36,576 nt of DNA from a virus, in the IMG/VR virus record IMGVR_UViG_3300017741_000021, positions 1 to 36,576 of that record, one strand, 5' to 3'. Position 1 is the stretch's first letter. Each line of letters starts with the position of its first letter. Under the pieces are notes generated by a model. That model made no database searches. It was not told where the DNA came from and saw only the letters and a list, made by a program, of their open reading frames with translations. Of the stretch, positions 6,870 through 36,576 are shown one piece after another. Position numbers and translations under genes: made by a program.

Positions 6870-7139
6870 ATGTTAAAACCAAAATGCCACACAGGTAAAG
6901 GAATCGCGTATGTTTCTTCAGGCCATTTATTACCATGCTGTTGGTGTGATAGTCTGCACCCAAAACCAAAAGAAGAATTTGTTAAACTCGGTTTTTTCTT
7001 TGAAGATTTAAAACTTGAAAATAACGACACCATCGAAGATATATTATTATCTGATGTGTGGATTGATTTTCATAAAAAACTTATAGAAACACCAGAAGAA
7101 GCAACGTGGGTTTGCAAGAAAAACTGTAGTGATGATTAA
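6870..7139 (+). CDS. SPASM-like iron-sulfur domain protein, stand-alone
   Basis: An 89-residue protein rich in placed cysteines: Cys6, then GKGIAYVSSGHLLPCCWC (Cys23, Cys24, Cys26), and Cys82 and Cys86 at the end (VCKKNC). The order, a short beta hairpin GxxxxPCC followed by a distant CxxxC, is that of SPASM/twitch auxiliary iron-sulfur domains, which normally form the C-terminus of radical SAM maturases. Here the domain is a separate gene that overlaps the start of the radical SAM gene by eight bases, and it comes first. Residues 45-80 are acidic and helical. I infer that it binds an auxiliary cluster and works with the next protein. A stand-alone Zn-binding protein is an alternative. Confidence 0.55.
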   Translation: MLKPKCHTGKGIAYVSSGHLLPCCWCDSLHPKPKEEFVKLGFFFEDLKLENNDTIEDILLSDVWIDFHKKLIETPEEATWVCKKNCSDD

Positions 7140-7842
7140 TTTTAATAAATTCTATAAATCATATATAAAAATTCAAAGAAAAGCTTACTTTAATATAGAA
7201 ACTACATCTAGATGTAGATTACAATGTCCTTTTTGCCAAAGACAAAGAAAAGGCGGTAAAGAGAAAGTTAAACAAGCCGGTGAAATGTCATATCAAGATA
7301 TGAGAAAAATTTATAATTTTACTGATAATATAAATTTTTGCGGTCAAATTAGTGATCCAATCTATCATACAGATTTTTTAAAAATACTAGAAATAAAGAA
7401 AAACGAATATCCAAATAAAAAAATGGATATAAGAACAAATGGATCAGGCAAAAAATTAGATTGGTGGAATAAAGCGTATGATCTTTCTGATGAAACAACT
7501 AATTGGATATTCGGTCTTGACGGAGCAAGTCAAGAGACCGCAAACCTATATCGCATAGGCACAAATTTTAATCAAATTTTTAAAGTTATGCAAATTGGAG
7601 CAAAAAGAAACATACCTATACAATGGCAATTTATTTTATTTGAGCACAACGAACATGAACTTAACCTAGCTAAAAAACTTTGTAATGAAAACGGAATAAT
7701 TTTAAATATTATTTACTCTAATAGATGGCCAAAAGAAAAAATGCATCTTGGAATAAATAAGTCATATGTTCAAATAGAAGAACAAACTAAAAACCAGAAA
7801 GTACCAGTACAAAAATATGCAAAAAGATATTTTAACAAATAG
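7132..7842 (+). CDS. Radical SAM enzyme
   Basis: A 236-residue protein with the cluster motif CRLQCPFC (Cys28, Cys32, Cys35, counted from the ATG at 7132), preceded by a first beta strand YFNIETTSR. It is followed by NFCGQISDPIYH (the position of the usual GGEP strand), IRTNGSG and FGLDGASQETANLYR, all typical of the partial TIM barrel of SPASM-group radical SAM enzymes. The chain ends where those enzymes would continue into the SPASM domain, which is supplied by the upstream gene. The substrate cannot be read from sequence. A GTG at 7129 is an alternative start; ATG at 7132 is preferred. The stop overlaps the next gene by 26 bases. Confidence 0.8.
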   Translation: MINFNKFYKSYIKIQRKAYFNIETTSRCRLQCPFCQRQRKGGKEKVKQAGEMSYQDMRKIYNFTDNINFCGQISDPIYHTDFLKILEIKKNEYPNKKMDIRTNGSGKKLDWWNKAYDLSDETTNWIFGLDGASQETANLYRIGTNFNQIFKVMQIGAKRNIPIQWQFILFEHNEHELNLAKKLCNENGIILNIIYSNRWPKEKMHLGINKSYVQIEEQTKNQKVPVQKYAKRYFNK

Positions 7843-8452
7843 AAAATATACAAGATGGTTTGATCAGGACAACATTCCTGAAAAAAAAGTTATAAAATCT
7901 TTAATTGAAACAACTTTTGAATTAGTACCTTCTAAACAAAATCTGATACCATATCTTATAACTGTGTTTGGCCCTGAACATAAAAAAGAAAAAGAAGAAA
8001 TAATTAAATTAAGTACAAGAAAAAAGATGATGACTGACTGGGGAAAAAATCTAAATACACAATTAGCAGCACCTTATCTTGTTATTTTTTCTACTAGATT
8101 TATAACTAATCCAAATAAAAAAGTTAAAGATATGATGAAAAGAGGAATTGAATTTAAGACTTGCCGTAAAGAAAAATTTAATCACTCAGCAGTTAAAATA
8201 GCTGCATCGCTAGAAATTGGTATGTTTTGTATGATATTGACTAAACTAGCTTTAGAGCACCAAATAGATACTGCGTATACTAGTTGCCATTTTAATGATC
8301 CAAAAGGACAAACTATGGTAGAAAATGAAGTTCTTTTTGTAATGAGCTTAGGCTATTATGATCCTACAAAAAGTTATAAAGATTTTAAAGATATGAAAAT
8401 TAAATCTGGGGAAGTAAAACCTAATATGAAGGATGTTATAATTTGGAAATAG
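7817..8452 (+). CDS. Nitroreductase-family flavoprotein (probable)
   Basis: A 211-residue protein. The N-terminus NRKYTRWFDQDNI followed by helix EKKVIKSLIETT and VPSKQNLIPYLITVFG matches the opening of FMN-dependent nitroreductases (Arg-x-x-Arg-x-Phe, then PSxxNxQPY). AAPYLVIFSTR, then KIAASLEIGMFCMILTKLAL and a final LFVMSLGYY give the rest of the fold. It lacks a clear second FMN-phosphate motif, so the assignment is by overall pattern. Its ATG lies inside the end of the radical SAM gene, so the two are coupled. Such proteins reduce nitro groups, flavins or peptide-derived heterocycles; here it could be a redox partner for the cassette. Confidence 0.6.
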   Translation: MQKDILTNRKYTRWFDQDNIPEKKVIKSLIETTFELVPSKQNLIPYLITVFGPEHKKEKEEIIKLSTRKKMMTDWGKNLNTQLAAPYLVIFSTRFITNPNKKVKDMMKRGIEFKTCRKEKFNHSAVKIAASLEIGMFCMILTKLALEHQIDTAYTSCHFNDPKGQTMVENEVLFVMSLGYYDPTKSYKDFKDMKIKSGEVKPNMKDVIIWK

Positions 8453-9159
8453 TATGTTTAAAGTGGGGTAACAAATTCAGCCATGAACATGTAAATCGTC
8501 TTTATGAAATGGTAAAGAAAAACTTTTATGATGATTTTACATTTGTGTGTTATACAGAAAATTCATCTCAAATTGATAAAAGAATTAAAATACGACCACT
8601 AAATATGGATTATGATTTAGAAAAATGGTGGTGGAAACTCACATTATTTGAGAAGCCAACTGATAAACCTACAATGTTTCTAGATTTAGATATTGTAATT
8701 CAACATAATATAACTCATTATATAGATTATTGTAAAGATAATAAGATATGCACAATTAAAGCTTATTGGAAGCCACATGCTCATAATTTAGAACCAGTTG
8801 CGCCTGGATATAATATGGATTTAAATTCTTCTGTTATAATTTGGAAAGGCGATTGCACACATGTATGGAATGAATTCTACGACCAGTCTGATTACTTAAT
8901 GTGTAAATATCAAGGAATAGATTCGTATTTGTATTTTCACCATAAAAATATACTTGAATTTTTTCCTAGAAATGAAATATATTCTAGATTACATGGAATG
9001 GATGAAAACAACTTTTGGTGGACTGGTCCTAAAGTTGCTTTATTTTATGATCCATTATATAATATTTGTATTTTTAATAAATGGAAGATGGATAAAAAAT
9101 GGGGTGGTCCTGGAATTGATGATGACGCATATGACGGATTTGAAAAATATTGGAGCTAA
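8443..9159 (+). CDS. GT-A type glycosyltransferase
   Basis: A 238-residue protein. It opens MEIVCLKWGNKFS, a beginning I associate with small phage and bacterial glycosyltransferases. FTFVCYTEN forms the second strand, and TMFLDLDIVI carries the metal/nucleotide-sugar motif Asp81-x-Asp83. NSSVIIWKGD and the final region ICIFN fit the acceptor half. The start is a TTG at 8443 preceded by AAGGA nine bases upstream; no in-frame ATG lies nearby, and the family opening supports this choice. It overlaps the nitroreductase-like gene by ten bases. The sugar donor and acceptor are unknown. Probable targets are a virion fibre or a host glycan. Confidence 0.75.
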   Translation: MEIVCLKWGNKFSHEHVNRLYEMVKKNFYDDFTFVCYTENSSQIDKRIKIRPLNMDYDLEKWWWKLTLFEKPTDKPTMFLDLDIVIQHNITHYIDYCKDNKICTIKAYWKPHAHNLEPVAPGYNMDLNSSVIIWKGDCTHVWNEFYDQSDYLMCKYQGIDSYLYFHHKNILEFFPRNEIYSRLHGMDENNFWWTGPKVALFYDPLYNICIFNKWKMDKKWGGPGIDDDAYDGFEKYWS

Positions 9160-9161
9160 TA

Positions 9162-9734
9162 ATGAAAGAACATGAATTTGATAAATCAACATTTATAGGT
9201 GGTTGGTATATACCTGATGAAGTTTGTGATAATTTAGTTGAAACATATTATAATAATATTACTGATACTGTAAAAGGACAAGTCGGTAATAACGCTGTAA
9301 TTCCATCTACTAAAATAAGCACTGAATTTATTATAAACAAAAATAAGAAGAAAGAACTTATTTCAGAATACGAAAGCCACTTAGGAAAAGTATTAAGCAA
9401 ATACAAAGAAAAATATCCGTATTCTAATAAAGTAAGTAAATACTCTTTACATAAGTATATTAAAATACAACATTATAAGCCTAATGAAGGATTTTTTAAA
9501 TGGCATGCAGAAAACACAGGCACTCATCAACAAAGACACTTAGTTTTTATGACATACCTAAATACTCTTGATAATGCTGGAACAGAATTTTATCATCAAA
9601 ACTTAACAACACCATGTATAAAAGGTTTAACATTAATATGGCCTTCAGCATGGACACATACACACAGAGGTGTTATCAATAATGATGCACACAAATTTAT
9701 AATAACAGGGTGGTTTAATTTCGATGTTAATTAA
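9162..9734 (+). CDS. 2-oxoglutarate/Fe(II) oxygenase, prolyl-hydroxylase type
   Basis: A 190-residue protein. A double-stranded beta helix core is visible from IKIQHYKPNEGFFKWHAEN (iron ligands His115-x-Glu117) through LVFMTYLNTLDNAGTEFYH and LIWPSAWTHTHRGV (distal His at about 166-168) to HKFIITGWF (Lys178 as likely 2-oxoglutarate anchor). This order is that of prolyl 4-hydroxylase-like enzymes. The acidic ligand is Glu rather than the usual Asp. I start the gene at the ATG at 9162 because GGAG lies six bases upstream; a TTG start four codons earlier would overlap the previous stop and lacks its own site. It hydroxylates an unknown protein or sugar substrate. Confidence 0.75.
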   Translation: MKEHEFDKSTFIGGWYIPDEVCDNLVETYYNNITDTVKGQVGNNAVIPSTKISTEFIINKNKKKELISEYESHLGKVLSKYKEKYPYSNKVSKYSLHKYIKIQHYKPNEGFFKWHAENTGTHQQRHLVFMTYLNTLDNAGTEFYHQNLTTPCIKGLTLIWPSAWTHTHRGVINNDAHKFIITGWFNFDVN

Positions 9735-13852: not shown

Positions 13853-15433
13853 TTAAACACTTAATGCAATAATTCTTAAATCTCTTATTCTAGGAACTTT
13901 TGCAGAATTGGTACTTCTAAACACTATTTTAATTTGAAATTTAGTAAAAGCAGGTAGCACTCCATTTTGTCCACCTATCAAATATTTATATTCTCTAAAA
14001 ACTGCAATTTCTTCATCTGCAGGCATTGCTGTTTCAGGACTTTGTAAAACAAAAGACTTATCAGTAATCACTTCATCTGATGTTCCTGTTCTATAATAGA
14101 CTTGGAAATCAGTATCATTAGGTCTATTTGCTGTAATTAATACTTTTAATCCAACTGCATCATCATCTAATGTTACGATTTTAGTTAAATGTTTTGCTGC
14201 AGCAGAACCATCAGTTGGTGATGTTTCATCAACGTAATTTAGTGGAACATTAAATCCGTTTGTTGCAGCTGGATCTTGTTTATCTACTATATTATCAATC
14301 AAAGAAATAGAAGTTCTTTGTAAATCAATCATTGGTGATATATCAGAATCCTCAGTATTCATCAATATTCTCATATCAAATGATTTTGTTTCGCTTGAAG
14401 GCGTTAATTCGTTTGCTTCAGCACTATCAAATGCAATTATATATGGTTCTAATGCTTGATTATTTTCATTAAATTTTATAGTTTGAAACTCTTGCTGTTT
14501 TTGATATGCAGTTTCTCCACCAGCAAAGGATTTACCAGTTGTGGCTTTAATTGCACCAGCAACAAATGTATTTCTTGGAGTTAACATCTGAGTGCTTGGA
14601 TATATAAGGCTAAAAGGTATATTTTTTGAAGCTATCATATTTGCTCCACCGGCTATAGCATCAGAATCAGCATTAGAATCAGCTTCAAATGTATAATCTG
14701 TCCAATCAACTTTTGTAATTGTTCTTCTGCCATTTACACTTGAATCAAATTCAAAAGGTATTGGAGCTCCTACTCCAGAAATATTAATAACGTCATTTAC
14801 GTTTAATCCATGCCCAATATGACGCACTTTAACAGTCGCATCACCACTAACTAAAGTAAGAGGATTATTTATTAATTTTTTATTTGGTAAAGTAGCATTG
14901 TGTAATATTGCTGTAGCAGCTTTGTATTTAAATTTAGCTTGGTGAATTGCAAAAGCTAAATCTTGGTTTTGTGATGGAGTCCATGTTACGCCGTTTTGAG
15001 AATAAAATAAACTACCTAAGTCTGGCTGTTTATTGGCACGTCTTTCAGTAGATCCAAATTGAAATTCATTTATTTCAGCTATGTAAATTTCATAATCTTT
15101 TGAATCAGCTGTTACTACTAATGCATAATCTTCTTGACCTTTTAAAAAAACTGGTTCATCAAATTGAAAAGATGTTGCTGTAAGCGCTGGACCACTTGTA
15201 TCAACATTTACACTTCCAGCTGGTAGCATTTTAATTGTTCCAGGTATAATTTTACTTGATGAAGGAAACCCATTAACCATTGGTCTTATTTGTATTTGTA
15301 TGGGTAAGCTTGCATCTTTCTTAGAAAAATATAAATCAACTTTGGTGCAATATATTCCAGTAGACGCGCTTATAAAAAACGACTGCGCTATTGGTTGCTT
15401 ATTTAATTGATACCCTAATGAGGTTACTGCCAT
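13853..15433 (-). CDS. Large tail/baseplate-periphery structural protein (526 residues)
   Basis: The N-terminal part QPIAQSFFISASTGIYCTKV, then DLYFSKKDASLPIQIQIRP, is a beta-sandwich pattern I know from large structural proteins of marine T4-like phages, where it often sits with a DUF4815-type domain. A linker rich in Asp-Ser pairs (ADSNADSDAIAGG) follows near residue 250. The C-terminal half carries DFQVYYRTG and EYKYLIGGQ strands and ends IRDLRIIALSV. It overlaps the 1342-residue gene by ten bases, so the two are translated together and probably assemble together. No catalytic motif is visible. It is likely part of the fibre-to-baseplate connection. The exact T4 equivalent is unclear. Confidence 0.6.
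   Translation of the reverse strand: MAVTSLGYQLNKQPIAQSFFISASTGIYCTKVDLYFSKKDASLPIQIQIRPMVNGFPSSSKIIPGTIKMLPAGSVNVDTSGPALTATSFQFDEPVFLKGQEDYALVVTADSKDYEIYIAEINEFQFGSTERRANKQPDLGSLFYSQNGVTWTPSQNQDLAFAIHQAKFKYKAATAILHNATLPNKKLINNPLTLVSGDATVKVRHIGHGLNVNDVINISGVGAPIPFEFDSSVNGRRTITKVDWTDYTFEADSNADSDAIAGGANMIASKNIPFSLIYPSTQMLTPRNTFVAGAIKATTGKSFAGGETAYQKQQEFQTIKFNENNQALEPYIIAFDSAEANELTPSSETKSFDMRILMNTEDSDISPMIDLQRTSISLIDNIVDKQDPAATNGFNVPLNYVDETSPTDGSAAAKHLTKIVTLDDDAVGLKVLITANRPNDTDFQVYYRTGTSDEVITDKSFVLQSPETAMPADEEIAVFREYKYLIGGQNGVLPAFTKFQIKIVFRSTNSAKVPRIRDLRIIALSV
13983..13990 (-). promoter_or_regulatory. Possible internal late promoter box
   Basis: TATAAATA on the minus strand, inside the 3' end of the 526-residue gene (codons for KYLIGG) and about 145 bases before the 69-residue gene. 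It could start a separate late message for the small fibre genes downstream. In an AT-rich gene a chance match is quite possible. Confidence 0.25.
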
Positions 15434-18400
15434 TTTCTTTTATCCTTTAATTCAATTTTGTTCTTTAGTACTTTATATGTTCCTATTATCATGGATAGTG
15501 GTGTAATAACAACTTCTGCATATAATGAACCAATTGAGGTTTTTCCATAGATCTTATTATTATAAAAATCTCTAACTCTATCAGATTGCCATTTAGATTT
15601 TGCAACTAAGTTATCTGCTATAATTTTACCCCAAACATCATATCCTTCTTGCCAAATAATTGACTGTTTTCTGTGCCATGCTCTTAATTTTTTAACTTCA
15701 GTAAAATTCATATCACCACGTTTTTGTGCTGCTGTACAACAGTGAGTACCATCACTAGATCCTCCATTATCACCCGGTGCTTCGTCGATTCCTGCATTTG
15801 CCGGACTAGAATTTGAAGCTGAATTTGCATCACCTAAACCACCTGTCGCAGAGTTAGAGTGTCCGTTACTAAAACCACCACCGCCTGTAGCATTATCTTC
15901 AGATATTGAAGTTCCTCCACCAGTCGTGCTTTCATTATCTCCTGAATTGTATTGAGCTTCGTCTCTTAATCTTATACCTTGAACATTAAGAACTCTAGTT
16001 GAAGCATAAGTTCTATCAATATTGTCGATATATCCAGTAGCAGTGTATATTGCTTTTGCTATAACTGATGCACCAGCTTCATTATCTGCACTTACGTCAA
16101 GAATTTTAAATTCTATTGGCCCAGTTCTAATTTTTAAACTATCGTTGTTAGGTATGATAAAAGAACCTTGAATTGTACCATTTGCATCTGTTTGTAATGT
16201 AGCAGCTCCATCTGGATGAGCAGTCAGTCCTTTTAATGTATTACCATAATCTACAGCATTATCAGAATAAAATTGAAATGTTTCGGGTTTAGTGTAGTCT
16301 GAAATTAAATTACCACCAAGTATAGGAAAGACTTTAGTATTTGGTCGCAATCCTTCTGATTTAAAAAATACTTTTCTAGATCTCATATAAGGTATTAAAG
16401 CAGATTGTACAACTCTATCTTCTACAACTTCTAGTATAGTTTCTTCACTTACAACTCTATTAACTGTTCCTTCTTGAGTATTAGTTTGTGAGCCAATTCC
16501 TAAATTTTCTGCAGGAATTCCTCCCCAATTCCAAGACCAGTTATTCCAATTATAAGCTTGAGTAGAACTCAATCTAGTTCCACCTTGTATAGTTCTTTCT
16601 GCAATAACATTTGTATCTCTCCATTCATCAGATGCAGGAGATACTACAGTAACACCTTCATATATAACAACAGAAAATGGATTTATACTAATTGCTTTAG
16701 TGGCTAAGTCTTGATTTATATACGGTGTTTCGTCATACATAATATAAACATTATCGCCTTTTCTTATAGTTTTTTGTGTACCACCATTAGCAGTTATAGA
16801 TCCAGCTGAATCATAAATTAACCTTACGTTGTCCTCAGTAAATGCTGGTCTTATTATATTGTCTATAGGATCTAATGCAGCTCTGTAATTAGTTCCACTT
16901 AATTGTGATTGTGAGTGATCTAAAAAGTTATCGACAAAAAATCCAGACTTTGTTCTATTATTACCTGCTGAATCTAGAACTTGAAAATGTTTAGTATCAA
17001 TTTCTAATGCACTTAGCGTTGCAACTTCTTCTAATTTATCAACTCTTTTTTCTAACAGACCTATGTCTTTCATTGTAAAACGTTTATGTTCGATCTTTTT
17101 AACACTAACGTCAGAATCATTTAATGTATTTGCATTAAGTCTAATATCATATAACCCGAGTGTTCCATCAGGTTTATTAGGTGTTATCGGAGTAAATCCT
17201 GCTGCACCTACATTAAATCTTATAATACCATCTTTGTCAATAACTAATTTACCAGCTTTGGCTAAGTGGTAAGTGATATCTGCAGTTACAACTGATGTTG
17301 GTTGAGGTAGCTCATGAACAATTGCACCAAGACTAGCATTACTAAACTCACCAGCTGAATCCATAACAGATCTAAAATCAAGTACATCATGCAGTTTTAT
17401 ACGTGTGCCATTACTAAATCTATATGTAGGAATTTGATCATACGGCACTTGAGCGTTATATGAATTAACAGCAAAAAAGTCTCCGTCATTTGCATGATTA
17501 AAGTGTCTATATCTAATAAATATTCCACCTGCAGGTGCAGATTGCCCGCCTTTAAGGAGTAACCTGCCTAGTGCATAGTGATTATCTCTTTGACCATCAT
17601 CTACAGTAAATCTGTTTAAATAACTTATACCGCTATCACCACTTTTTACAACCTGTTCTACATCAAAAATATCAGCTTTGTTAAGAGGAAGAAACTTTTG
17701 GCCGAATCCATCAGAATCTATAGAAACTGTAATTGAATTTGTTGCAAGAAGTTTTTGTCTAGGTGTTGCTGCACTTTTATTGACATAAGCTAATACTTCA
17801 ATAGCCTGACTTGCAGGTAAACCACTTAGTGTTGATGATTGAGTTCCTGCAGAACTTATACTTGCACCAAGATAGATATCACTATCAGTACCAATTATCC
17901 AATCTCCAGTATTTACAAATGTTTCAGTTGCATCTGTTAAAGACAACGCCGCCACGCCTGAACCATTAGAAGTAGTAGCAAACCTTCTTTGAACTGCAAA
18001 ACTAATATCAGTTAATCCTTGAGGTCTTCTTCGTGGTAAAGGAAAAATAGAAGTATTATTTGATGTTTCTTTTAATACAGCTTTACTACTTTCAAGTATT
18101 GGCTCAAAATAATTTGTTACACTTGTTCCTACACTTTTTACATTTCTAAAAGCTGATCCACTATTCATTTTTACATCAAATAAATGGTATCTTAGCTTAG
18201 TGCCATCTTCGTTGATCGCTTTAACTCGTGCGGTACCTATAACATTTCCTGTATAATCAGTATTATCTTTTAATTCTAATTTTTCAAATACGTTGATATT
18301 TGGTATACCAAATGAGACCTCATCAAGACTAGTTGCATTGTTAACAAGTACATAATTTCCAAAATCAATTCCTACTACATCATTGTTTATTGTAGTAGTT

Positions 18401-19452
18401 TCTATTGATTTTTTAACTCTTATAGTTGTAGGATAATCACGAGATGCTCTATAACCATCAACAACTGCGGTGCCTGGACTCACATTTAGTCGTAAATGTG
18501 TTGAAGCTGAATCTAATTCAAAATTTATAGTAAAAGGTTTTACAAAATAATCACCAGAATTTTCAAATATTCTTTTTGCAACAACTTTATTAGGAACATT
18601 ATACGCGTCGTTTGCGTCAATTGCACTATATATAACGCCGTCTCTAACAGTTGCAACATGAATAAAATTCTCATCAGCTGTAAGTTCACTTTTCTCTGCA
18701 ATGGTCAACTCAATTTTATATCTATCACCGCCTGGCGCAGTTAAGTTTGGAACAGCTCCTTGATTATCAAATAATGCATCTGTATCTATAGCTGTAACTA
18801 TAGATTCAACTGATTTAAATCCTACTTCAGTATTAACAACATCAGAATATTTTGATATAATTTTAGTTTGATTATCAGTAAATACAAAATGACCTCTTGC
18901 GTAATATATACCAGATAATAGTGTAATTAATATTCCAACACCCACTGCTGGGTCAGCAGCTGAATTAATTGTTTGAACAGTTAATGTCTTAGATCCACTA
19001 ACAATATCTTCTCCTGGAGTCATTCGTATTGTTGAAGAGCCTCCAGTAACACTACTAGTATTAGTATATTGAACATATAATGTTGCAGGATCACTTCCTA
19101 CAGCTGCTACATATTGTAATAACTTTACTTGAACAGAAGAATTTTGACCCACCCAAGTTTCTCCTACAAACGATTCAATATCAGCAGGAATTCCGTTAGT
19201 ATCTGTATTTAATTTTATAAATTCGTACTTTTGATTAATCGTGGCGCCACCTGGTTTTACTACAGCGCCTTCTTTAAATATATTACTACCAAATCTTGAT
19301 ATTTGTTCTTGAAGTATAGTTTGCAGCTGTGTTAATTCTCTCGCCTGTAGTGCCTTACCAGAATTAAATAGTATTTTATGATAACCAGCGCTATCAGCAA
19401 AATCGTCTTTATACAACGTTGGAAAAGTGGTTTCAGTTAAATTAGTGGCCAT
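15424..19452 (-). CDS. DUF4815-type large tail structural protein (1342 residues)
   Basis: The N-terminus LYKDDFADSAGYHKILFNSG, then KALQARELTQLQTILQEQIS and FGSNIFKEGAVVKPGG, is characteristic of the DUF4815 group of phage tail proteins seen in marine T4-like phages. The rest is beta-rich with scattered Asp-Ser pairs. A Gly/Ser/Asn-rich linker (about residues 1170-1240) leads to HCCTAAQKRGDMNFTEVKKL and a separate basic, Trp-containing helical domain (residues about 1250-1342), with a hydrophobic stretch ITPLSMIIGTYKVL. AAGGA lies upstream of the ATG. It sits directly after gp8 and before the 526-residue protein. I infer a long baseplate-attached fibre or wedge-tip protein. There is no recognisable enzyme. 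Confidence 0.7.
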   Translation of the reverse strand: MATNLTETTFPTLYKDDFADSAGYHKILFNSGKALQARELTQLQTILQEQISRFGSNIFKEGAVVKPGGATINQKYEFIKLNTDTNGIPADIESFVGETWVGQNSSVQVKLLQYVAAVGSDPATLYVQYTNTSSVTGGSSTIRMTPGEDIVSGSKTLTVQTINSAADPAVGVGILITLLSGIYYARGHFVFTDNQTKIISKYSDVVNTEVGFKSVESIVTAIDTDALFDNQGAVPNLTAPGGDRYKIELTIAEKSELTADENFIHVATVRDGVIYSAIDANDAYNVPNKVVAKRIFENSGDYFVKPFTINFELDSASTHLRLNVSPGTAVVDGYRASRDYPTTIRVKKSIETTTINNDVVGIDFGNYVLVNNATSLDEVSFGIPNINVFEKLELKDNTDYTGNVIGTARVKAINEDGTKLRYHLFDVKMNSGSAFRNVKSVGTSVTNYFEPILESSKAVLKETSNNTSIFPLPRRRPQGLTDISFAVQRRFATTSNGSGVAALSLTDATETFVNTGDWIIGTDSDIYLGASISSAGTQSSTLSGLPASQAIEVLAYVNKSAATPRQKLLATNSITVSIDSDGFGQKFLPLNKADIFDVEQVVKSGDSGISYLNRFTVDDGQRDNHYALGRLLLKGGQSAPAGGIFIRYRHFNHANDGDFFAVNSYNAQVPYDQIPTYRFSNGTRIKLHDVLDFRSVMDSAGEFSNASLGAIVHELPQPTSVVTADITYHLAKAGKLVIDKDGIIRFNVGAAGFTPITPNKPDGTLGLYDIRLNANTLNDSDVSVKKIEHKRFTMKDIGLLEKRVDKLEEVATLSALEIDTKHFQVLDSAGNNRTKSGFFVDNFLDHSQSQLSGTNYRAALDPIDNIIRPAFTEDNVRLIYDSAGSITANGGTQKTIRKGDNVYIMYDETPYINQDLATKAISINPFSVVIYEGVTVVSPASDEWRDTNVIAERTIQGGTRLSSTQAYNWNNWSWNWGGIPAENLGIGSQTNTQEGTVNRVVSEETILEVVEDRVVQSALIPYMRSRKVFFKSEGLRPNTKVFPILGGNLISDYTKPETFQFYSDNAVDYGNTLKGLTAHPDGAATLQTDANGTIQGSFIIPNNDSLKIRTGPIEFKILDVSADNEAGASVIAKAIYTATGYIDNIDRTYASTRVLNVQGIRLRDEAQYNSGDNESTTGGGTSISEDNATGGGGFSNGHSNSATGGLGDANSASNSSPANAGIDEAPGDNGGSSDGTHCCTAAQKRGDMNFTEVKKLRAWHRKQSIIWQEGYDVWGKIIADNLVAKSKWQSDRVRDFYNNKIYGKTSIGSLYAEVVITPLSMIIGTYKVLKNKIELKDKRKWQ

Positions 19453-25106: not shown

Positions 25107-27095
25107 TTATGTAGTAGGTAATGCTTCCATTAACTCATTAGTTACTTGAGAAAAGTTATTATATCTAGTTTCAATTTTATTAGTGTAAATTACTTCCCAT
25201 GGCGGTGTTATTTCTGGCATTATTATAATAATTTGAGCATTTAACGAATCATCTGGATTATAATTATCATAATCTAATATCATTTTTTCAAATTGTATAT
25301 TATCTTTAAAATATACAGCCAAATCAAATGTTTTTTCTATAGCTATTTCACCTTTTTCATTTATTAATTCATAAACAACGGCTCTACCTCTAGACATTAA
25401 ATAATTAATTCCATCACTAACATCTAAGTCTTCACCTATTTCAGGTCTATATAGACCTTCTACTACTTGCAGTCTAAAATCTTTAAATTCACGAACAGCT
25501 TTATGAGAGTTTACCGCTTTTAAAATACGTGTGTGCAATGTATATTGTTTAGCTAGGTTTAGTCTTTCGCCATCATCAAGAATATGAGTTAAAGTTACAG
25601 GATCGCCTACTCCACCTAAAAATGTAGCCATGGTAATTCCTTCGGCCAATCGTGTTCTACTTGATATAGATCCTTCTTGAAACACTGGATTAAATTTAGC
25701 ATCTGGTAAAGCATCAGTTTTATTTACGCTATTAGGAGTACCTATAAATCTTTCCATAGGATTAGCTGGATTTCCCATAATTGTACTTGGAATTCTAAGA
25801 CTTTTTTCATTTGAAACTATTCTGTCAACTGTTAGTATTGCTTCTCGAGAAAAAAATGGTGATAATATGCCTTCAGCAATACAAGCTCCTGTAAAAGTTT
25901 CGTTATTAATATTATTTGGATCTCTTAACTTTGATCTTACTTGACGTGTAGTTAAATCTGTTTTTGATACTCCACCATAATGATCTAATCTATTTAACCT
26001 GTTAAATAAACCTTTTGATGTATCGATATCTACTCTTTTTATTCCTATTGAAGAGTTTTCTAACGCGTCGTTTAATAAAGAAGTTGTTGGCTCTGCTGTA
26101 ACTTTATTTGTTGCAGTTGTAACTGTTGGTGTTCCGCCCGTGCCAGCAGGTCCTGGAACTGCAGTTCCAGCTTTATTTGCTTCATTTGCTTTTTCAGCTA
26201 CACCATTTAAATCTCCGTGAAATGTTGTAGCATGGATTGAAGTTGAATTAATTCTTGGAATGTGCGCAGTTTTTCCATAATATACCATATCAGTACCTCC
26301 AATAGTTCCACTATCACCTAGCATTGCTAAAGATGATGCAGCAATATTCACACTTTTTGATGAGAGTGTAATTTCTTTTTCAGCTGTCATAACTAGTGTA
26401 CCACCAATATTTTGTGCTTGATCTTCTCCTACAAATAATCCATTTGATTTTTTTATAATACTTGTATTATTTCCATGTATAAATGTTGTTGCATCTATCC
26501 CTATTGTTTCTGATTTACTTTCAATTATTTGAACTTCTTTACTTCCACCAATATCTTGTTTATAACCTCTTTTTATTGTTTGATCAACATCGCCTTCTAC
26601 TTTTACATTAAAATCTCCTCCGACTTCTAAATCAAAATCTCCAGAAACTTTTAATTTTAAATTTCCATTATAATGAAGTTCACCATCGCCATCAACAATA
26701 ACTTTTTCGTCATGAGCTGTTACTCTTATTGTGTTAGCCACTGAACCATATACTACAGTTCCATCTGCTCTCATTTCTACGCCTGAACCAGTTCTATGCC
26801 TAATCATAACACGCTCACCACCAGGTGTATCATCAGTTTCTATAATGTGTCCAGAAGCAGTTTCTTTAACTTGAGAATTAGGATATATTGATGCTGGTTC
26901 TTCTTTTATTTCTAGATCTATATCTGCAGATGCTCCGCCTAATTCAACGTTTACTCTAGTTGTTCCTCTTGCTTTATCATTCACTGAAGGCGAATTAATA
27001 GAACCTTGTTTAGGATAACTTCCTGTTCTATCAGCAAAACCATTTCGATTATTATTAATCGAAGCTTTGCTAAAATCTTTATTTTCCATTGGCAT
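25107..27095 (-). CDS. Baseplate hub spike-like protein with beta-helix region
   Basis: A 662-residue protein. After a polar N-terminus, residues about 90-290 form short Val-x-Val-x-Gly-Asp type strands: GERVMIRHRTGSGVEMRADG, KVIVDGDGELHYNG, LKVSGDFDLEVGGDFNVKVE and GTLVMTAEKEITLSSKSV. This is the pattern of the gp5C triple-stranded beta-helix of T4-like cell-puncturing devices. A Gly/Pro/Thr-rich linker (about 310-335) leads to a second domain (residues 350-662) with KFNPVFQEGSISSRTRLAEG and VREFKDFRLQVVEG. The neighbouring gp5 homologue lacks this helix, so the needle appears to be encoded here. The assignment is from pattern and place. Confidence 0.65.
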   Translation of the reverse strand: MPMENKDFSKASINNNRNGFADRTGSYPKQGSINSPSVNDKARGTTRVNVELGGASADIDLEIKEEPASIYPNSQVKETASGHIIETDDTPGGERVMIRHRTGSGVEMRADGTVVYGSVANTIRVTAHDEKVIVDGDGELHYNGNLKLKVSGDFDLEVGGDFNVKVEGDVDQTIKRGYKQDIGGSKEVQIIESKSETIGIDATTFIHGNNTSIIKKSNGLFVGEDQAQNIGGTLVMTAEKEITLSSKSVNIAASSLAMLGDSGTIGGTDMVYYGKTAHIPRINSTSIHATTFHGDLNGVAEKANEANKAGTAVPGPAGTGGTPTVTTATNKVTAEPTTSLLNDALENSSIGIKRVDIDTSKGLFNRLNRLDHYGGVSKTDLTTRQVRSKLRDPNNINNETFTGACIAEGILSPFFSREAILTVDRIVSNEKSLRIPSTIMGNPANPMERFIGTPNSVNKTDALPDAKFNPVFQEGSISSRTRLAEGITMATFLGGVGDPVTLTHILDDGERLNLAKQYTLHTRILKAVNSHKAVREFKDFRLQVVEGLYRPEIGEDLDVSDGINYLMSRGRAVVYELINEKGEIAIEKTFDLAVYFKDNIQFEKMILDYDNYNPDDSLNAQIIIIMPEITPPWEVIYTNKIETRYNNFSQVTNELMEALPTT

Positions 27096-27107: not shown

Positions 27108-29372
27108 TTATTTTATGAAGTTAAATTTATCTGTTAATTGACTTAAATTATCAAAATTTAATTTTTTAATGTTTTCATCAAAGCCAGCTGACAATCCATC
27201 AGTTGCTCCAAACAAAGCTTTTGCATTTTTATCACCTAATATCTTACTAGCATCTCCTCTAGCTTTTGTTATATTAGCTTCCATCTCAGCTTTAATATCC
27301 CCTTTGTTTTGTTGAATCTCTGTTAATGCAGTTTTCATTTCAGCTTGAGCTTCTTCTAAGGTTACTACCTTTTTGTTACCTGTAGCAGGATCAATGTTTT
27401 CATAGTCTTTAGTGATTTTAGTAGGGCTAAATGATTCTTCTGTTTTAAGCTTAGTAGTTGTAGGCTTTGCTACTTCTGGTGGTTTAATTAGCGCTTGTTG
27501 TGCTCTAGATATTTCTGCAGATCTTGAATCAGCTGGATCTATTGTTAAAACTTTACCGTATTTTTTTCTTATTGCTTCAATATCTAAGCCTGGCGCAATA
27601 TAATCTGAATCAATTTCATATACGCCTATTAATTGAATTTGATACATATACGCTAATATTCCAGCGCAAACAGTATCTAGTGTGGCTGCTTGTTGAGTTG
27701 TAGGAGGATTAGTTTTACCTGCTATAATAAGAATGTATATACCTTTATTGGCATAATTGTCAAATACAGGGTCAAGTGTTTCTCCTAAAGGTCTTCCTTT
27801 TTTACATGTGCCATCTCTTTCAATTACAAAATGTGCTTGTAATCCATATAATCTAGAATTTAAACCTTCTAACTCTTTACGCGCTTCAGTTGATGCTTCT
27901 GTTGGAGTTTTACCAGCTGATGTAAGAGTAGATATTTCGTCATCTAAATCAATTTTTTTCATTTCTTCATGAAGACCTGGCGTATCAAAATCAACTAAGT
28001 CATCAGTTGTCCAGTCAACAATTGCAAAAGTAAAAGCATTTATACCTTTACCAGTAACTCGAGGATGCCCATCTAAATAATTACATAATTTATCTAAAGA
28101 CCCTAGTGTTTCAAAGTTATAATCGCTGGAATTAGTAAGATAACCTTTCCAATTTGATTCAGCTTCTGCACTAGATACTTCATCTTTTCCAACAACTGGT
28201 TGCATGTTAGGTGTTAATTTACCTTTACCCATTGCTTTACTCATATTAGTATTATAATCAATTTTTCCTGTAACTGAATTAGTTCCGGGCATTAACTCTT
28301 TTATAACTGCCGGGTTTGCAATTTCTTCTGCAGATAATTTAAGACCTGATGAAATATTTGATATTGGTAAATTTATATCACCTGGAATACCTGGTGGTGT
28401 TAAACCTTTTGCTGCAGCTAATATATTTGGTTGTACATTTACATTAGATCTAGCACCAGCTGGGCACATATCTAATATGTTTCCGAAAAGATCTTTAAGG
28501 CCTAAACCACTTCCTGCATTATTACTTAATTGTGCTCTTGCTTTTATAACTTCTTTTTGTTTTGTAACAATATTTTTAATTGGATCTGTGCCTGCTTCTT
28601 TATCATCTGAAGCTTCTTCAGCTGTTTTTAAAATTTTGTCTGATAGTCCTGAAGGAATAAAGAATTTCATTTGCTCTTTAAGATTATTTTTATTTATTCC
28701 TGGCATATGTTTTTTAAATGTATTTTGTATTTCGTTTCTAGTTCCATTTACAAAAACTGCTTTATTTAAATTAGTATCTTTCATACTCGAAGATTTTAAA
28801 AGATTTCCTAGCACAGTTGTATTTGTAGATTGTTTATTAGCAGATCCATCGCCAGCACTTTCTAATAATTTTGTTACTCTAGGTCTATCAACAAAATTAG
28901 CCGTAGGTTTAGCTCCACCTACTAAACCCATAAATCCAGATACAACTTTACCAGGATCATTAACTATAGCTGTATTGCTTATTTTAAATTTAGCTTTTTC
29001 ATTTTCAGCTGTAGCTTTTTCTGCACCTCCGACATTTGCTAGTAAATTAGCTCTTATATCTCTAAGAAAGGGTGCATTTTCAGTGGCTTGTTGAAACTCA
29101 TCTTCAGAAACATTTCGAATAAATTCAATTCTAATATACGTATAATTATTATTTAAAGTCACAGAAGATTTATTATGGGTATAGTCTACACCTTTATATA
29201 ACAAGCTCGAGCTTAAAGATCCAGTTCCAGCTCTAATCTCAATAATTTCTGCAATGTCGTCTTTAGGTCCAAAATTAAAAGTTCTTCCATCAAACTTTCT
29301 ATGTTTTCCTAAAGGCCCTTTACCGAAAGCAATTGATTTTCCTTTTAGTTCTATTGTTTCTGATTCACTCAT
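27108..29372 (-). CDS. Baseplate hub protein with degenerate amidase-like domain
   Basis: A 754-residue protein. Residues about 440-600 follow the order of an N-acetylmuramoyl-L-alanine amidase (amidase_2/PGRP) fold: FTFAIVDWTTDD, LQAHFVIERDGTCKKGRPLG, NYANKGIYILIIAG, QQAATLDTVCAGILAYMYQI and IGVYEIDSDYIAPGLDIE. The three usual zinc ligands are not seen: the first His position reads Asp (VDWTT), the GH position reads Gly-Val, and the APG site lacks Cys. So the domain is probably inactive and structural. Residues 1-80 contain a small beta domain (IAFGKGPLGKHRKFDGRTF), and both flanks are Lys/Ala-rich helices. It overlaps gp5 by four bases and belongs to the hub/spike group. Confidence 0.6.
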   Translation of the reverse strand: MSESETIELKGKSIAFGKGPLGKHRKFDGRTFNFGPKDDIAEIIEIRAGTGSLSSSLLYKGVDYTHNKSSVTLNNNYTYIRIEFIRNVSEDEFQQATENAPFLRDIRANLLANVGGAEKATAENEKAKFKISNTAIVNDPGKVVSGFMGLVGGAKPTANFVDRPRVTKLLESAGDGSANKQSTNTTVLGNLLKSSSMKDTNLNKAVFVNGTRNEIQNTFKKHMPGINKNNLKEQMKFFIPSGLSDKILKTAEEASDDKEAGTDPIKNIVTKQKEVIKARAQLSNNAGSGLGLKDLFGNILDMCPAGARSNVNVQPNILAAAKGLTPPGIPGDINLPISNISSGLKLSAEEIANPAVIKELMPGTNSVTGKIDYNTNMSKAMGKGKLTPNMQPVVGKDEVSSAEAESNWKGYLTNSSDYNFETLGSLDKLCNYLDGHPRVTGKGINAFTFAIVDWTTDDLVDFDTPGLHEEMKKIDLDDEISTLTSAGKTPTEASTEARKELEGLNSRLYGLQAHFVIERDGTCKKGRPLGETLDPVFDNYANKGIYILIIAGKTNPPTTQQAATLDTVCAGILAYMYQIQLIGVYEIDSDYIAPGLDIEAIRKKYGKVLTIDPADSRSAEISRAQQALIKPPEVAKPTTTKLKTEESFSPTKITKDYENIDPATGNKKVVTLEEAQAEMKTALTEIQQNKGDIKAEMEANITKARGDASKILGDKNAKALFGATDGLSAGFDENIKKLNFDNLSQLTDKFNFIK

Positions 29373-30214
29373 AAAATTACTACCTCAGCTCCAACTCCAA
29401 GTTTTTTTATAGTTTCTTGCGCAAATGCTATTCGTTGATTAGTATGAGCTAAAGCTTTATTTGGCCTTTCATACTTATCTTGAAATACAATAGTTGCTTC
29501 TTTAACTGTTTCAGCTTTTCTAAGTTTTCCAATTCCTAAATACGGTAAAGTTTCTAGCTCATACTTTACAAATCTAATTTGTGTTTCAATAAGTCTATGA
29601 GATTGACCAATGCTTGCAGCAAACTTCATTAATTCTCCAAACCTATCTCCTGCTTTTTTGGCAGGATTCCATTGCGCAATTCCAAACGATCCTTCATTTT
29701 GAAATCCAGAAACAGCAGCTGGATTAATATCTCCACGATTAGTAGTAGCTCCTGATTCTACACAAAAATTACCTATCATACCTGCAGCCTGTTGCGGCGT
29801 AAATTGACCACCAGCTGGTGATATAAAAAAATTAAATGCTTTTTCAATATTTGTATTTCCATTTAATTCTATAGTTACGTCATTAACAACTTCTTGTACA
29901 GTATTTCTTTTAGTTTCTATTTTTGGAATAGATCCTAATACTAATGGCAATTGTGAATTTCGACCATCTAAAAATATTCCGAACACTTGAGCTCTAACTT
30001 TTAATTGTGAATTACTTCCTTGACCTGAACTGCCATCTTCAGTTACAGGTATGTTAACTTGAGCCCATGGCAAATCGTCATCAGGTATGTCATTAACATC
30101 TGCAGAATGTAATCCCTGTATTCTTACTTTAACTCGATCTAATTTTAAAGGATCTATATTATTAACAACAAATCCTATAAACCATCTTGCATTATCACCG
30201 TAAAATTCTTGCAT
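29369..30214 (-). CDS. 5: Baseplate hub/tail lysozyme gp5
   Basis: A 281-residue protein. Residues 1-100 are the gp5/VgrG-type OB fold: WFIGFVVNNIDPLKLDRVKV, RIQGLHSADVNDIPDDDLPW, FGIFLDGRNSQLPLVLGSIP. Residues about 120-260 are a phage tail lysozyme domain: AFNFFISPAGGQFTPQQAAG, MIGNFCVESGATTNRGDINP (Glu153 as probable catalytic acid) and GSFGIAQWNPAKK. T4 gp5 (575 residues) carries a different lysozyme and a C-terminal beta-helix; here the chain stops after the lysozyme and the helix-like part is in a separate gene. It would cut peptidoglycan during DNA injection. It shares a base with the gp27 stop. Confidence 0.85.
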   Translation of the reverse strand: MQEFYGDNARWFIGFVVNNIDPLKLDRVKVRIQGLHSADVNDIPDDDLPWAQVNIPVTEDGSSGQGSNSQLKVRAQVFGIFLDGRNSQLPLVLGSIPKIETKRNTVQEVVNDVTIELNGNTNIEKAFNFFISPAGGQFTPQQAAGMIGNFCVESGATTNRGDINPAAVSGFQNEGSFGIAQWNPAKKAGDRFGELMKFAASIGQSHRLIETQIRFVKYELETLPYLGIGKLRKAETVKEATIVFQDKYERPNKALAHTNQRIAFAQETIKKLGVGAEVVIL

Positions 30215-34178: not shown

Positions 34179-34772
34179 ATGAGTAACTTATTTCAAAAAC
34201 TAGAACTCGAAGCTTTTCGAAAAGGTATCACACCTCGTACGCAAGAATCGCGTGATTGGTTTCGTAAACGTGTACAAAGATTAACGAGAGTTAACCGTCA
34301 GTCTTTGATGAGAGAAGATGGAATAAACAAAGTAAGTACACCATTACTTGGTAGTATGCTTATGTTTTTCTATGATCCTAAATTAAAAGACAAACTTCCA
34401 TATTACGATACATTTCCATTAGTAATACCAGTTGAAAAAGCAGAAGGTGGATTTAGAGGTTTAAATCTGCATTATATTCCTCCTGTTTTACGAGCAAAGT
34501 TTTTAGATAGTTTACTTGATGTTGTTAATAATAAAAAGTATGACGAATCAACTCGTTTTACTTTAACATACAGATTACTTAAAGGTGCTGCTAAATTTAG
34601 ATACTTTCAGCCATGTTTTAAACATTACTTATTGGATCATGTTAAATCTAGATTTGCTCAGGTGCCAGCGCCAGAATGGGAAATAGTAACTTTTATGCCA
34701 ACCGCAAGCTGGAAAAAAACTTCAGCTGGTAGAGTATACTCAGATTCAAGAAAGATAGCAAATGGCCAATAG
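34179..34772 (+). CDS. Conserved T4-like virion protein, function not firmly known
   Basis: A 197-residue protein. GITPRTQESRDWFRKRVQRL, GSMLMFFYDPKLKDKLPYYD, TFPLVIPVEKAEGGFRGLNL and HYIPPVLRAKFLDSLLDVVN are conserved pieces of a family I recall from many T4-like and larger myoviruses, where it is variously labelled as structural. T4 places gene 2 (DNA end protector) beside gene 4, so it could be the counterpart; I cannot verify a sequence match. The C-terminus has basic and Trp residues (SWKKTSAGRVYSDSRK). It overlaps the next gene by 11 bases. A head or neck role is inferred from place. Confidence 0.5.
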   Translation: MSNLFQKLELEAFRKGITPRTQESRDWFRKRVQRLTRVNRQSLMREDGINKVSTPLLGSMLMFFYDPKLKDKLPYYDTFPLVIPVEKAEGGFRGLNLHYIPPVLRAKFLDSLLDVVNNKKYDESTRFTLTYRLLKGAAKFRYFQPCFKHYLLDHVKSRFAQVPAPEWEIVTFMPTASWKKTSAGRVYSDSRKIANGQ

Positions 34773-35454
34773 TATAGATGAAATAAAAGCACTTGCAAAT
34801 ACTAAATTAGGTTTTGCAAGACCTAATAGATTTTTAGTTACAATGCCGACTAATTTTGGTGGAGGTGGTGGTCTTTTAGGTGGAATATTGGGGTTTTTAA
34901 ATTTAGGCGGTGGTGGCGCATCAGGTCGAGAATTAAATATATTATGCTCAAATGCAACATTACCAGCTAAAACAACATTAACAAACGATAGAAGAATAGG
35001 TATGGAGTTTCAAAAAGTAGCTTATGGCTATGCTGTTGATGACGTATCTATGACATTTTATTTAATGAACGACTACGGAGTTAAAGAATACTTTGACGCT
35101 TGGCGCAATACAATAATACCAGAGCAAGGTGCCAATGCATTTACAACAAGCTATAAAAGTGAATATGCTAGAACTATTAGTATACACCAATTAAGACAAC
35201 CGTTAGCAGGATTTAGCAAACAAATAGGGCCAATAAGATTTAATGCAGGTATTGGAGGAGGTTCAGTATATTCAGTAGATTTACTAGAAGCCTTTCCTGT
35301 ATCAACCAGCGCAATAGAATTAAATAACGAACTCGATGGATTAGTGCAATTAAATGTATCATTTGCATATACAAATTGGGTTAAATCACAAAGTGGACAA
35401 GGATTCATAAATATGGATATAGATACACCACTTGGTGGATTAGATATACTTTAA
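34762..35454 (+). CDS. Tail-tube/baseplate-cap family protein (gp54 or gp19 type)
   Basis: A 230-residue protein. The opening DEIKALANTKLGFARPNRFL, then VTMP, the strand pattern LCSNATLPAKTTLTNDRR, FQKVAYGYAVDDVSMTFYLM and the end VQLNVSFAYTNWVKSQS are the usual tube-protein features shared by gp19 and gp54. A hydrophobic Gly-rich loop (GGGGGLLGGILGFLNLGGGG, residues about 33-52) replaces the first hairpin loop. Position next to gp26 favours gp54, the tube-to-baseplate junction, over gp19, which would be expected near the sheath gene. The paralogue assignment is uncertain. Confidence 0.6.
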   Translation: MANSIDEIKALANTKLGFARPNRFLVTMPTNFGGGGGLLGGILGFLNLGGGGASGRELNILCSNATLPAKTTLTNDRRIGMEFQKVAYGYAVDDVSMTFYLMNDYGVKEYFDAWRNTIIPEQGANAFTTSYKSEYARTISIHQLRQPLAGFSKQIGPIRFNAGIGGGSVYSVDLLEAFPVSTSAIELNNELDGLVQLNVSFAYTNWVKSQSGQGFINMDIDTPLGGLDIL

Positions 35455-35466
35455 GGAGTGAAATGA

Positions 35467-36174
35467 ATGAGTTTACCAAAACTTAATAATGTACCAAAAT
35501 ATAAAACAATAATACCTTCAACAAATCAAGAAATAGATTTTAGACCGTTTCTTGTTAGAGAAGAAAAAATATTACTTATTGGATTAGAATCACAAGATCC
35601 AGTACAAATAGCAACTTCAATATTAGATACTGTTGTATCATGCTTATACGGTGAAATTGATAGTAATAAATTAACATCATATGATATTGAGTATTTGTTT
35701 TTAAAAATACGATCTAAATCAGTAGGAGAAACTTCAAATCTTGTATTGAAGTGCAGTTCGTGCGAGGCTGAAAATGAAGTGTCTGTTAATCTAGAAGACA
35801 TAACAATGGAAGTAAAAATAACAAATAACACAGTAGAAATAGCAGATGATATTTCATTAGAAATGACGCATCCTACATTTAAACAAATTTCAAATAGTGA
35901 TGCTGCTATTGAAACATCGCCTACAAATCAAGTATTTGCTTTAATCAAAGAATCAGTTGTAGCAGTTTTAACTAATGATGAAAGAATTGTTGTAAAAGAT
36001 ATTGATAAAAAAGAATTTCAAGATTTTATTGAATCTATGACTCAAGATCAATTTAGTAAAATACGAGCTTACATTGAATCAATTCCAAAATTATCTCATG
36101 AAGTAAAATTTGATTGTGTAAAATGTAATGAAAATAATAATTTAACAGTGGAGGGTCTGCAAAGTTTTTTATAA
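35467..36174 (+). CDS. 26: Baseplate hub assembly protein gp26
   Basis: A 235-residue protein of the T4 gp26 baseplate family. The opening MSLPKLNNVPKYKTIIPSTN, then FRPFLVREEKILLIGLES and YDIEYLFLKIRSKSVGE are the conserved parts. Two Cys pairs, CSSC (residues 96 and 99) and CVKC (217 and 220), would bind one zinc. AAGGAG lies eight bases before the ATG. T4 gp26 works with gp51 in hub assembly. The last codons contain a slippery heptamer right before the TAA, in front of a gp51-like open frame, so a longer fused form is likely. Confidence 0.85.
   Translation: MSLPKLNNVPKYKTIIPSTNQEIDFRPFLVREEKILLIGLESQDPVQIATSILDTVVSCLYGEIDSNKLTSYDIEYLFLKIRSKSVGETSNLVLKCSSCEAENEVSVNLEDITMEVKITNNTVEIADDISLEMTHPTFKQISNSDAAIETSPTNQVFALIKESVVAVLTNDERIVVKDIDKKEFQDFIESMTQDQFSKIRAYIESIPKLSHEVKFDCVKCNENNNLTVEGLQSFL
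36150..36171 (+). promoter_or_regulatory. Probable programmed -1 frameshift signal (gp26 to gp51-like)
   Basis: GGAGGG at 36150-36155, a nine-base spacer, then T TTT TTA at 36165-36171 in the reading frame of gp26, followed directly by TAA. The heptamer is a standard X XXY YYZ slip site, and a Shine-Dalgarno-like element about ten bases upstream is the stimulator known from the E. coli dnaX site. A weak palindrome ATTAGCTAAT lies about 20 bases downstream. Confidence 0.65.
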
Positions 36175-36350
36175 TTTGTCTATCTCATAATTCATTAGCT
36201 AATTATTATCAAACCAATTTTAGTCTAATGCAACATCATAAGTATTCACTAGATGAGATAGACCATTTGATACCCTGGGAAAAAGACGTTTATATTAATA
36301 TGTTAGTTGATCATATAAAACAAGAAGAAACTAAGCACACGAAAGAGTAG
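36171..36350 (+). CDS. 51: gp51-like hub-assembly domain in the -1 frame of gp26
   Basis: An open frame of 59 codons that begins where gp26 ends, in the -1 frame, and stops at TAG 36348-36350. It reads FIICLSHNSLANYYQTNF after slippage, then HHKYSLDEIDHLIPWEKDVY and INMLVDHIKQEE. The pattern HHxxSxxEIxxLxPWExDxYxxML is one I associate with short gp51-type or tail-assembly-chaperone proteins placed after gp26. There is no ATG, GTG or TTG between the preceding in-frame stop and an ATG at 36228, which would give only 40 residues and has no ribosome site. Expression as a C-terminal extension of gp26 is therefore the simplest reading. The gp51 name is by position and pattern. Confidence 0.6.
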   Translation: MICLSHNSLANYYQTNFSLMQHHKYSLDEIDHLIPWEKDVYINMLVDHIKQEETKHTKE

Positions 36351-36354
36351 AATA

Positions 36355-36576
36355 ATGGCAAGATCATATAGTACACTTGGAGATGTAATAGAGCAACTTA
36401 AAGTAAATAATAGTTCTACTATCGATACAGCTCACGCTGTTGATAGTTTAAATAATACGTTATCTAGGCAGTTTGTAAAACAAGCTCGAGCTGATTTAGA
36501 AGCTTCAAGAGAAAAACAAACAAAATCTGGTTTAAAAAATAATACTTCTCCAGTATCATCTCCAAAAGCTTCAAAG
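36355..36576 (+). CDS. Probable tail tape-measure protein, N-terminal part (runs off the window)
   Basis: ATG at 36355, four bases after the gp51-like stop, open to the right edge (74 codons). It reads MARSYSTLGDVIEQLKVNNS, then STIDTAHAVDSLNNTLSRQF and VKQARADLEASREKQTKS. An initial helix with LKxNN, followed by a polar helix and a basic helix with ARADLEASREK, resembles the start of many long tape-measure proteins in myoviruses, and the position after the gp26/gp51 chaperone pair fits that role. The assignment is an inference; a long hub or lysozyme-bearing tail protein is an alternative. Confidence 0.45.
   Translation, partial: MARSYSTLGDVIEQLKVNNSSTIDTAHAVDSLNNTLSRQFVKQARADLEASREKQTKSGLKNNTSPVSSPKASK

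Follow-up and report, generated by a model that had tools for sequence, protein, structure and literature searches.

A tail assembly chaperone with a short form and a probable long, −1-frameshifted form at the gp26-gp51 junction of T4-like phages

The 3′ end of gp26 in T4-like phages raises the question of whether gp26 and the reading frame that follows it, called gp51 in other annotations, are two genes or one. We analysed a 36,576-base uncultivated virus record that carries a T4-like virion module (this whole stretch of DNA is referred to as the window), for which a sequence-only reading had predicted a programmed −1 frameshift that fuses gp26 to a gp51-like domain. Comparison with related sequences leads us to conclude that the locus very probably codes for two lengths of a single tail assembly chaperone, a short gp26 and a long gp26-gp51 fusion produced via −1 slippage.

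The gp26 junction and its gene neighbourhood

In the window, gp26 (35467..36174, + strand) encodes a 235 aa protein of the T4_baseplate family, the short, TAC-N-like form of the putative chaperone, which matches Pfam PF12322 at E 9.9e-54 in a profile search and phrog_150 at E 9.5e-53 (180 bits, profile positions 5-232 of 282). The 3′ end of this gene reads ..GAG GGT CTG CAA AG[T TTT TTA] TAA, with the slippery heptamer T TTT TTA (bracketed; 36165..36171) in the gp26 frame and the zero-frame stop TAA (36172..36174) directly 3′ of it. The Shine-Dalgarno-like sequence GGAGGG, a putative 5′ stimulator, is located at 36150..36155, nine nucleotides before the heptamer, and forms a duplex of −9.8 kcal/mol with the 16S tail. 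All of these elements are on the + strand, as is the −1 frame extension (36171..36350), which runs for 59 codons beyond the heptamer to a TAG at 36348-36350 and would form the C-terminal part of the long form. Its product contains the motif HHKYSLDEIDHLIPWEKDVY and matches phrog_634 ("baseplate hub assembly catalyst", gp51) at E 4.1e-26, with only profile positions 58-113 aligned. The earliest ATG, GTG or TTG of the −1 frame is an ATG at 36228, corresponding to codon 21, and no Shine-Dalgarno sequence was found before it (best duplex +1.0 kcal/mol). The sequence-only reading had placed the heptamer and its immediate TAA correctly to the base, and its claims of a GGAGGG nine bases upstream, of 59 open codons, of a −1 frame with no usable start near its beginning and of an HHxxSxxEIxxLxPWExDxY-type product all agree with these findings. 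The predicted peptide across the fusion junction is ..GLQSFLIICLSH.. or ..GLQSFFIICLSH... In the window ORFs that reach 120 codons, TTTTTT occurs in frame 10 times, and only the gp26 occurrence has a −1 frame open for at least 40 codons.

The genes are arranged in the order tail tube, gp26, gp51 extension and tape-measure candidate. The tail tube gene (34762..35454, +) matches phrog_45 (tail tube) at E 5.3e-26. The tape-measure candidate (36355..36576, +), a 5′ part cut by the window end, is designated by position, and neither this fragment nor the full 554 aa copy present in a near-identical locus (L002) has a family match. The corresponding gene of HTVC008M matches tape-measure families (E 1.2e-12), and a tape measure is located directly or near downstream in this phage, with a weaker match in ValKK3. 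In T4, gp26 and gp51 are entered as hub assembly chaperones in a published listing, where gp51 is given as essential and not in the particle, and the presence of gp26 in the hub is described as disputed (PMC3004832). Since the gene order is that of lambda and the T4 proteins are listed as hub assembly chaperones, we take gp26 and its extension to be two lengths of one tail assembly chaperone, produced through −1 slippage.

Three other regions of the window are also of note. On the minus strand (13853-19452), ORFs 15424-19452 and 13853-15433 overlap by 10 bases and match phrog_358 (2056 residues) at 577-1414 and 1775-2055, respectively, and represent a split gene. Between 25107 and 30214 (−), two ORFs match separate pieces of the hub/lysozyme family phrog_430, 29369-30214 its N-terminal part and 25107-27095 a later part, and a 754 aa ORF between them (27108-29372) has no family matches. 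Finally, a small island between tail-fibre and baseplate genes (7129-9734, +) contains matches to radical SAM, glycosyltransferase and 2OG-Fe(II) oxygenase families.

Conservation and nucleotide-level features of the junction

Junctions from relatives were gathered in three ways, using the gp51 motif, a gp26 alignment blind to the junction and named records; an alignment of diverse non-cyanophage gp26 proteins was too variable for a scan of the collection. All 80 junction-blind loci carry an in-frame T_TTT_TTN in the last 45 nt of gp26 together with an open −1 frame, and over all loci 217/223 junctions have the heptamer at this place and an open −1 frame. As a control, other genes of the same loci have a heptamer near their end in 4/336 cases, accompanied by an open −1 frame in 1/336. 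Beyond marine cyanophages, the heptamer junction is present in Vibrio phage ValKK3, Sinorhizobium phage phiN3, Pseudomonas phage pf16, Stenotrophomonas phage BUCT608, Ochrobactrum phage ORM_20, Aeromonas phage Ah1, a Desulfovibrio phage and the jumbo coliphage PBECO4, and Rhizobium phage RL38J1 has the variant T TTT TTG. About 570 phage records, mostly from Synechococcus phages or other cyanophages, contain the −1-frame stretch, and the conserved part of the protein that it encodes starts at the heptamer itself. Single genomes are often mis-annotated where a frameshift mutation or a sequencing error has split one gene, and a decaying or chance overlap could arise in this way. However, the same split and heptamer recur across several phage families, in contigs and finished genomes that together number more than 200, and on this breadth of conservation we rejected the explanation, whose probability we consider negligible.

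Two individual loci are also of note. A single contig (L051) is missing about 35 of the last gp26 codons and the heptamer, with the gp51 frame intact, which may reflect either a deletion or an assembly fault. In the second locus (L250), gp51 contains an in-frame TTTTTT that is displaced from the junction by about 9 nt and was taken as chance.

Codon usage was analysed in 164 junctions under 80% identical, all with TTTTTT found, a requirement that dropped only 6/223 loci. The first phenylalanine of the heptamer is encoded by TTT in 164/164 junctions, compared with 69% in the gene body, and the preceding codon likewise ends in T in 164/164; the nominal P values (1e-26 and 1e-36, respectively) assume independent sequences and, since the sequences are related, overstate the significance. 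Further upstream, glutamate at −12 is encoded by GAG in 68/99 cases, compared with 27% in the gene body, and GGG and GGA are favoured for glycine at −9. Pairing with the 16S tail peaks 9-10 nt 5′ of the heptamer, where the mean duplex is −5.8 kcal/mol compared with a background of −0.1. Downstream, folding relative to synonymous recodings of the −1 frame gives a mean z of −1.38, with 30% of junctions below −2, whereas three control folding windows give −0.32 to 0.00, with 5-7% below −2. The hairpin stems differ by clade at one place, for example GTATGGCTCA..TGAGTCATAC and GGCTCTCacatGAGAGCC, and among the 50 strongest the first pair is most often 5 nt past the heptamer. No significant 3′ hairpin was detected in the window itself (z +1.2 over +9..+57 and −1.5 over +9..+75). 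As judged from these alignments, codon choice at the heptamer, the Shine-Dalgarno-like box and the hairpin go beyond what the protein requires.

Slippage on a T run might alternatively occur during transcription rather than translation, and 66/164 junctions do have seven T. In most junctions, however, a C or A ends the run after exactly six T, and the bacterial cases of transcriptional slippage have been described for runs of about nine (PMC5009743). Moreover, the Shine-Dalgarno box, which is tuned to the heptamer, and the hairpin 3′ of the heptamer indicate slippage by the ribosome, rendering transcriptional joining of the frames highly improbable.

Could gp51 instead be a separate small protein, made by reinitiation after the gp26 stop, with the heptamer incidental to a conserved Phe-Phe C-terminus? 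In 60/164 relatives, about a third, the −1 frame has an ATG, GTG or TTG among its first 8 codons, and the Ackermannviridae phages GR28A and Kamild (L217, L218), which have no heptamer, carry a short homologue of the extension (E 4e-8 and 5e-7 in a small set), an ORF that overlaps the gp26 stop as TAATG and is probably translated by reinitiation as a separate chain. Against this explanation, the −1 frame of the window has no start before codon 21, and 43/119 junctions have no ATG, GTG or TTG within the first 18 codons. Moreover, Shine-Dalgarno sites are lacking before the −1-frame starts (a duplex of −6 kcal/mol or stronger precedes 1% of first −1-frame starts vs 48% of gp26 starts), the TTT and NNT codon choice is fixed beyond the amino acids, and conservation of the −1-frame protein sets in at the heptamer. 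We therefore regard it as very unlikely that gp51 is such a separate protein, although in those 60 relatives the nearby start codon means that reinitiation could yield additional, separate gp51.

The long form and its counterparts in T-even phages and Ackermannviridae

Read through the −1 shift, the window fusion matches phrog_150 in a single stretch (5-277 of 282, E 1.1e-61), the added −1 frame raising the score from 180 to 210 bits in one match. The T-even gp51 (UPEC01, 250 aa) is a single ORF that spans phrog_150 13-282; a profile built from the −1 extensions recognises its C-terminus (i-Evalue 2e-9 in a set of 12 sequences), and the gp26 profile recognises the remainder. T-even gp26 ends at phrog_150 position 234 with the C-terminus GLKEFFK and without the heptamer. 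In 37 T-even-type loci the short gene is present in 37/37 and a single-ORF long gene was detected in 34/37. A short and a long form with a common N-terminal part are thus found as coding capacity, both in the end-to-end match of the window fusion and in the single ORF of T-even phages.

AlphaFold2 models of the window gp26 (pLDDT 91.7) and T-even gp51 (pLDDT 91.4) have the same predicted order of strands and helices, and the latter adds four C-terminal helices where the extension begins. With the gp26 model as query, BFVD yielded gp26 proteins of T-even type as well as an Acinetobacter gp51. Sequence comparison linked gp26 to no solved structure, and neither gp26 nor T-even gp51 had a significant Foldseek match in the PDB; that of gp26 to the HK97 tail assembly chaperone 2ob9 is not significant (probability 0.28-0.47, E 2.0-2.5). 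The window gp26 also contains two zinc-ribbon-like CxxC pairs, CSSC (35752-35763) and CVKC (36115-36126); T-even gp51 has a CxxC too (CQKC), and several cyanophage gp26 proteins have none.

On the basis of shared family, fold order and gene content, we interpret T-even genes 26 and 51 as a duplication. It is possible, although we advance this only tentatively and with some doubt, that the cassette of Shine-Dalgarno box, T_TTT_TTN and hairpin is ancestral in the T4-like superfamily and was replaced twice, by duplication in the T-evens and by a TAATG-coupled extension in the Ackermannviridae. Were this the case, a single covalent chain would not be obligatory for the long form.

Proposed mechanism and comparison with known systems

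We strongly infer from the comparative sequence evidence that ribosomal slippage occurs at the gp26 heptamer. Most ribosomes would stop at TAA 36172 to give the 235 aa gp26, and a minority, retained as GGAGGG base-pairs to the 3′ end of 16S rRNA, would slip one base back on U UUU UUA and continue for 59 codons to give a 294 aa gp26-gp51 fusion. The efficiency of slippage and the binding partners of both forms are argued from analogy. On the model of lambda gpG/gpGT, the part shared by both forms would cover the tape-measure protein, the extension would bring in subunits of the tail tube or hub, and both forms would act only during assembly. Efficiency could be low, as synthetic constructs in E. 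coli show far less slippage on U_UUU_UUA and U_UUU_UUU than on A_AAA_AAG (PMC5009743). The −1 frameshift, the gp26-gp51 fusion and the analogy with lambda G/GT originally proposed for this locus are supported by the conservation of the heptamer, by codon choice, by the lack of a ribosome site for gp51 and by the T-even single-ORF fusion.

Marine "gp51" is therefore most probably no more than the C-terminal extension that a tail assembly chaperone, working like lambda G/GT, carries in its long form. In the GenBank records examined, gp51 is shown as its own gene ("baseplate hub assembly catalyst") or is absent, a widespread annotation that this reading would correct; the −1-frame stretch is present in about 570 phage records. 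In Citrobacter phage Moon (L219, 1-1554), GenBank joins a 'GT-like fusion protein' at gp27/gp28, which apparently represents a search for the missing GT in T-evens. More than 150 natural variants of the cassette, spanning cyanobacterial, alphaproteobacterial and gammaproteobacterial hosts, are now available for studying the trade-off between Shine-Dalgarno box, heptamer and hairpin. A chaperone of two lengths would be unsurprising to a tail-assembly specialist, yet the case is broad and cleanly testable.

As predicted for the window, the −1 shift of lambda gpG/gpGT lies at the very end of the chaperone ORF, between the tail tube and tape-measure genes, and gpGT likewise consists of the short form plus a C-terminal part; the lambda heptamer is a different one. 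A 2016 review describes G-T frameshifting as a conserved trait of the long-tailed phages, "except T4" (PMC5009743), an exception that would be explained by gene duplication having replaced the frameshift. The E. coli dnaX cassette, to which the arrangement at this locus had been likened, also has a Shine-Dalgarno-like box about 10 nt 5′ of its heptamer. This part of the likeness holds, whereas the dnaX 3′ hairpin has a counterpart in many relatives but is weak or absent in the window. In addition, the dnaX heptamer is A_AAA_AAG rather than T_TTT_TTA and, unlike dnaX, the shifted product in the window is the longer one. A further parallel is the TAC of Vandenendeviridae and Andersonviridae (phage Adele), described as a −1 extension of TAC-N at an invariant polyT motif, although in other phage families and with the motif GTTTTT (PMC12846349).

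In the T4-type phages (Tevenvirinae and Acinetobacter phages), gene 51 corresponds to the fused long form and gene 26 to the short form, but these are distinct paralogues encoded on opposite strands, and gene 26 has no heptamer at its end. The assignment of tail assembly chaperones in T4-like phages is reported to be the work of Vladimirov, Gautam and Davidson (Virology 2022). Two later papers cite them for phages having one short and one fused long gene (PRFect; PMC10885494) and for polyT slippery sites in T4-like TAC-N genes (Adele; PMC12846349). Hence, although the sequence-only reading presented a frameshift between gp26 and gp51 as not known to have been described, the citing papers indicate that a T4-like chaperone of two lengths is already described in kind, and the window locus is a well-supported further case. 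To this the present analysis adds the breadth of the junction, its stimulators, the Ackermannviridae variant and the re-annotation of the records that carry the extension.
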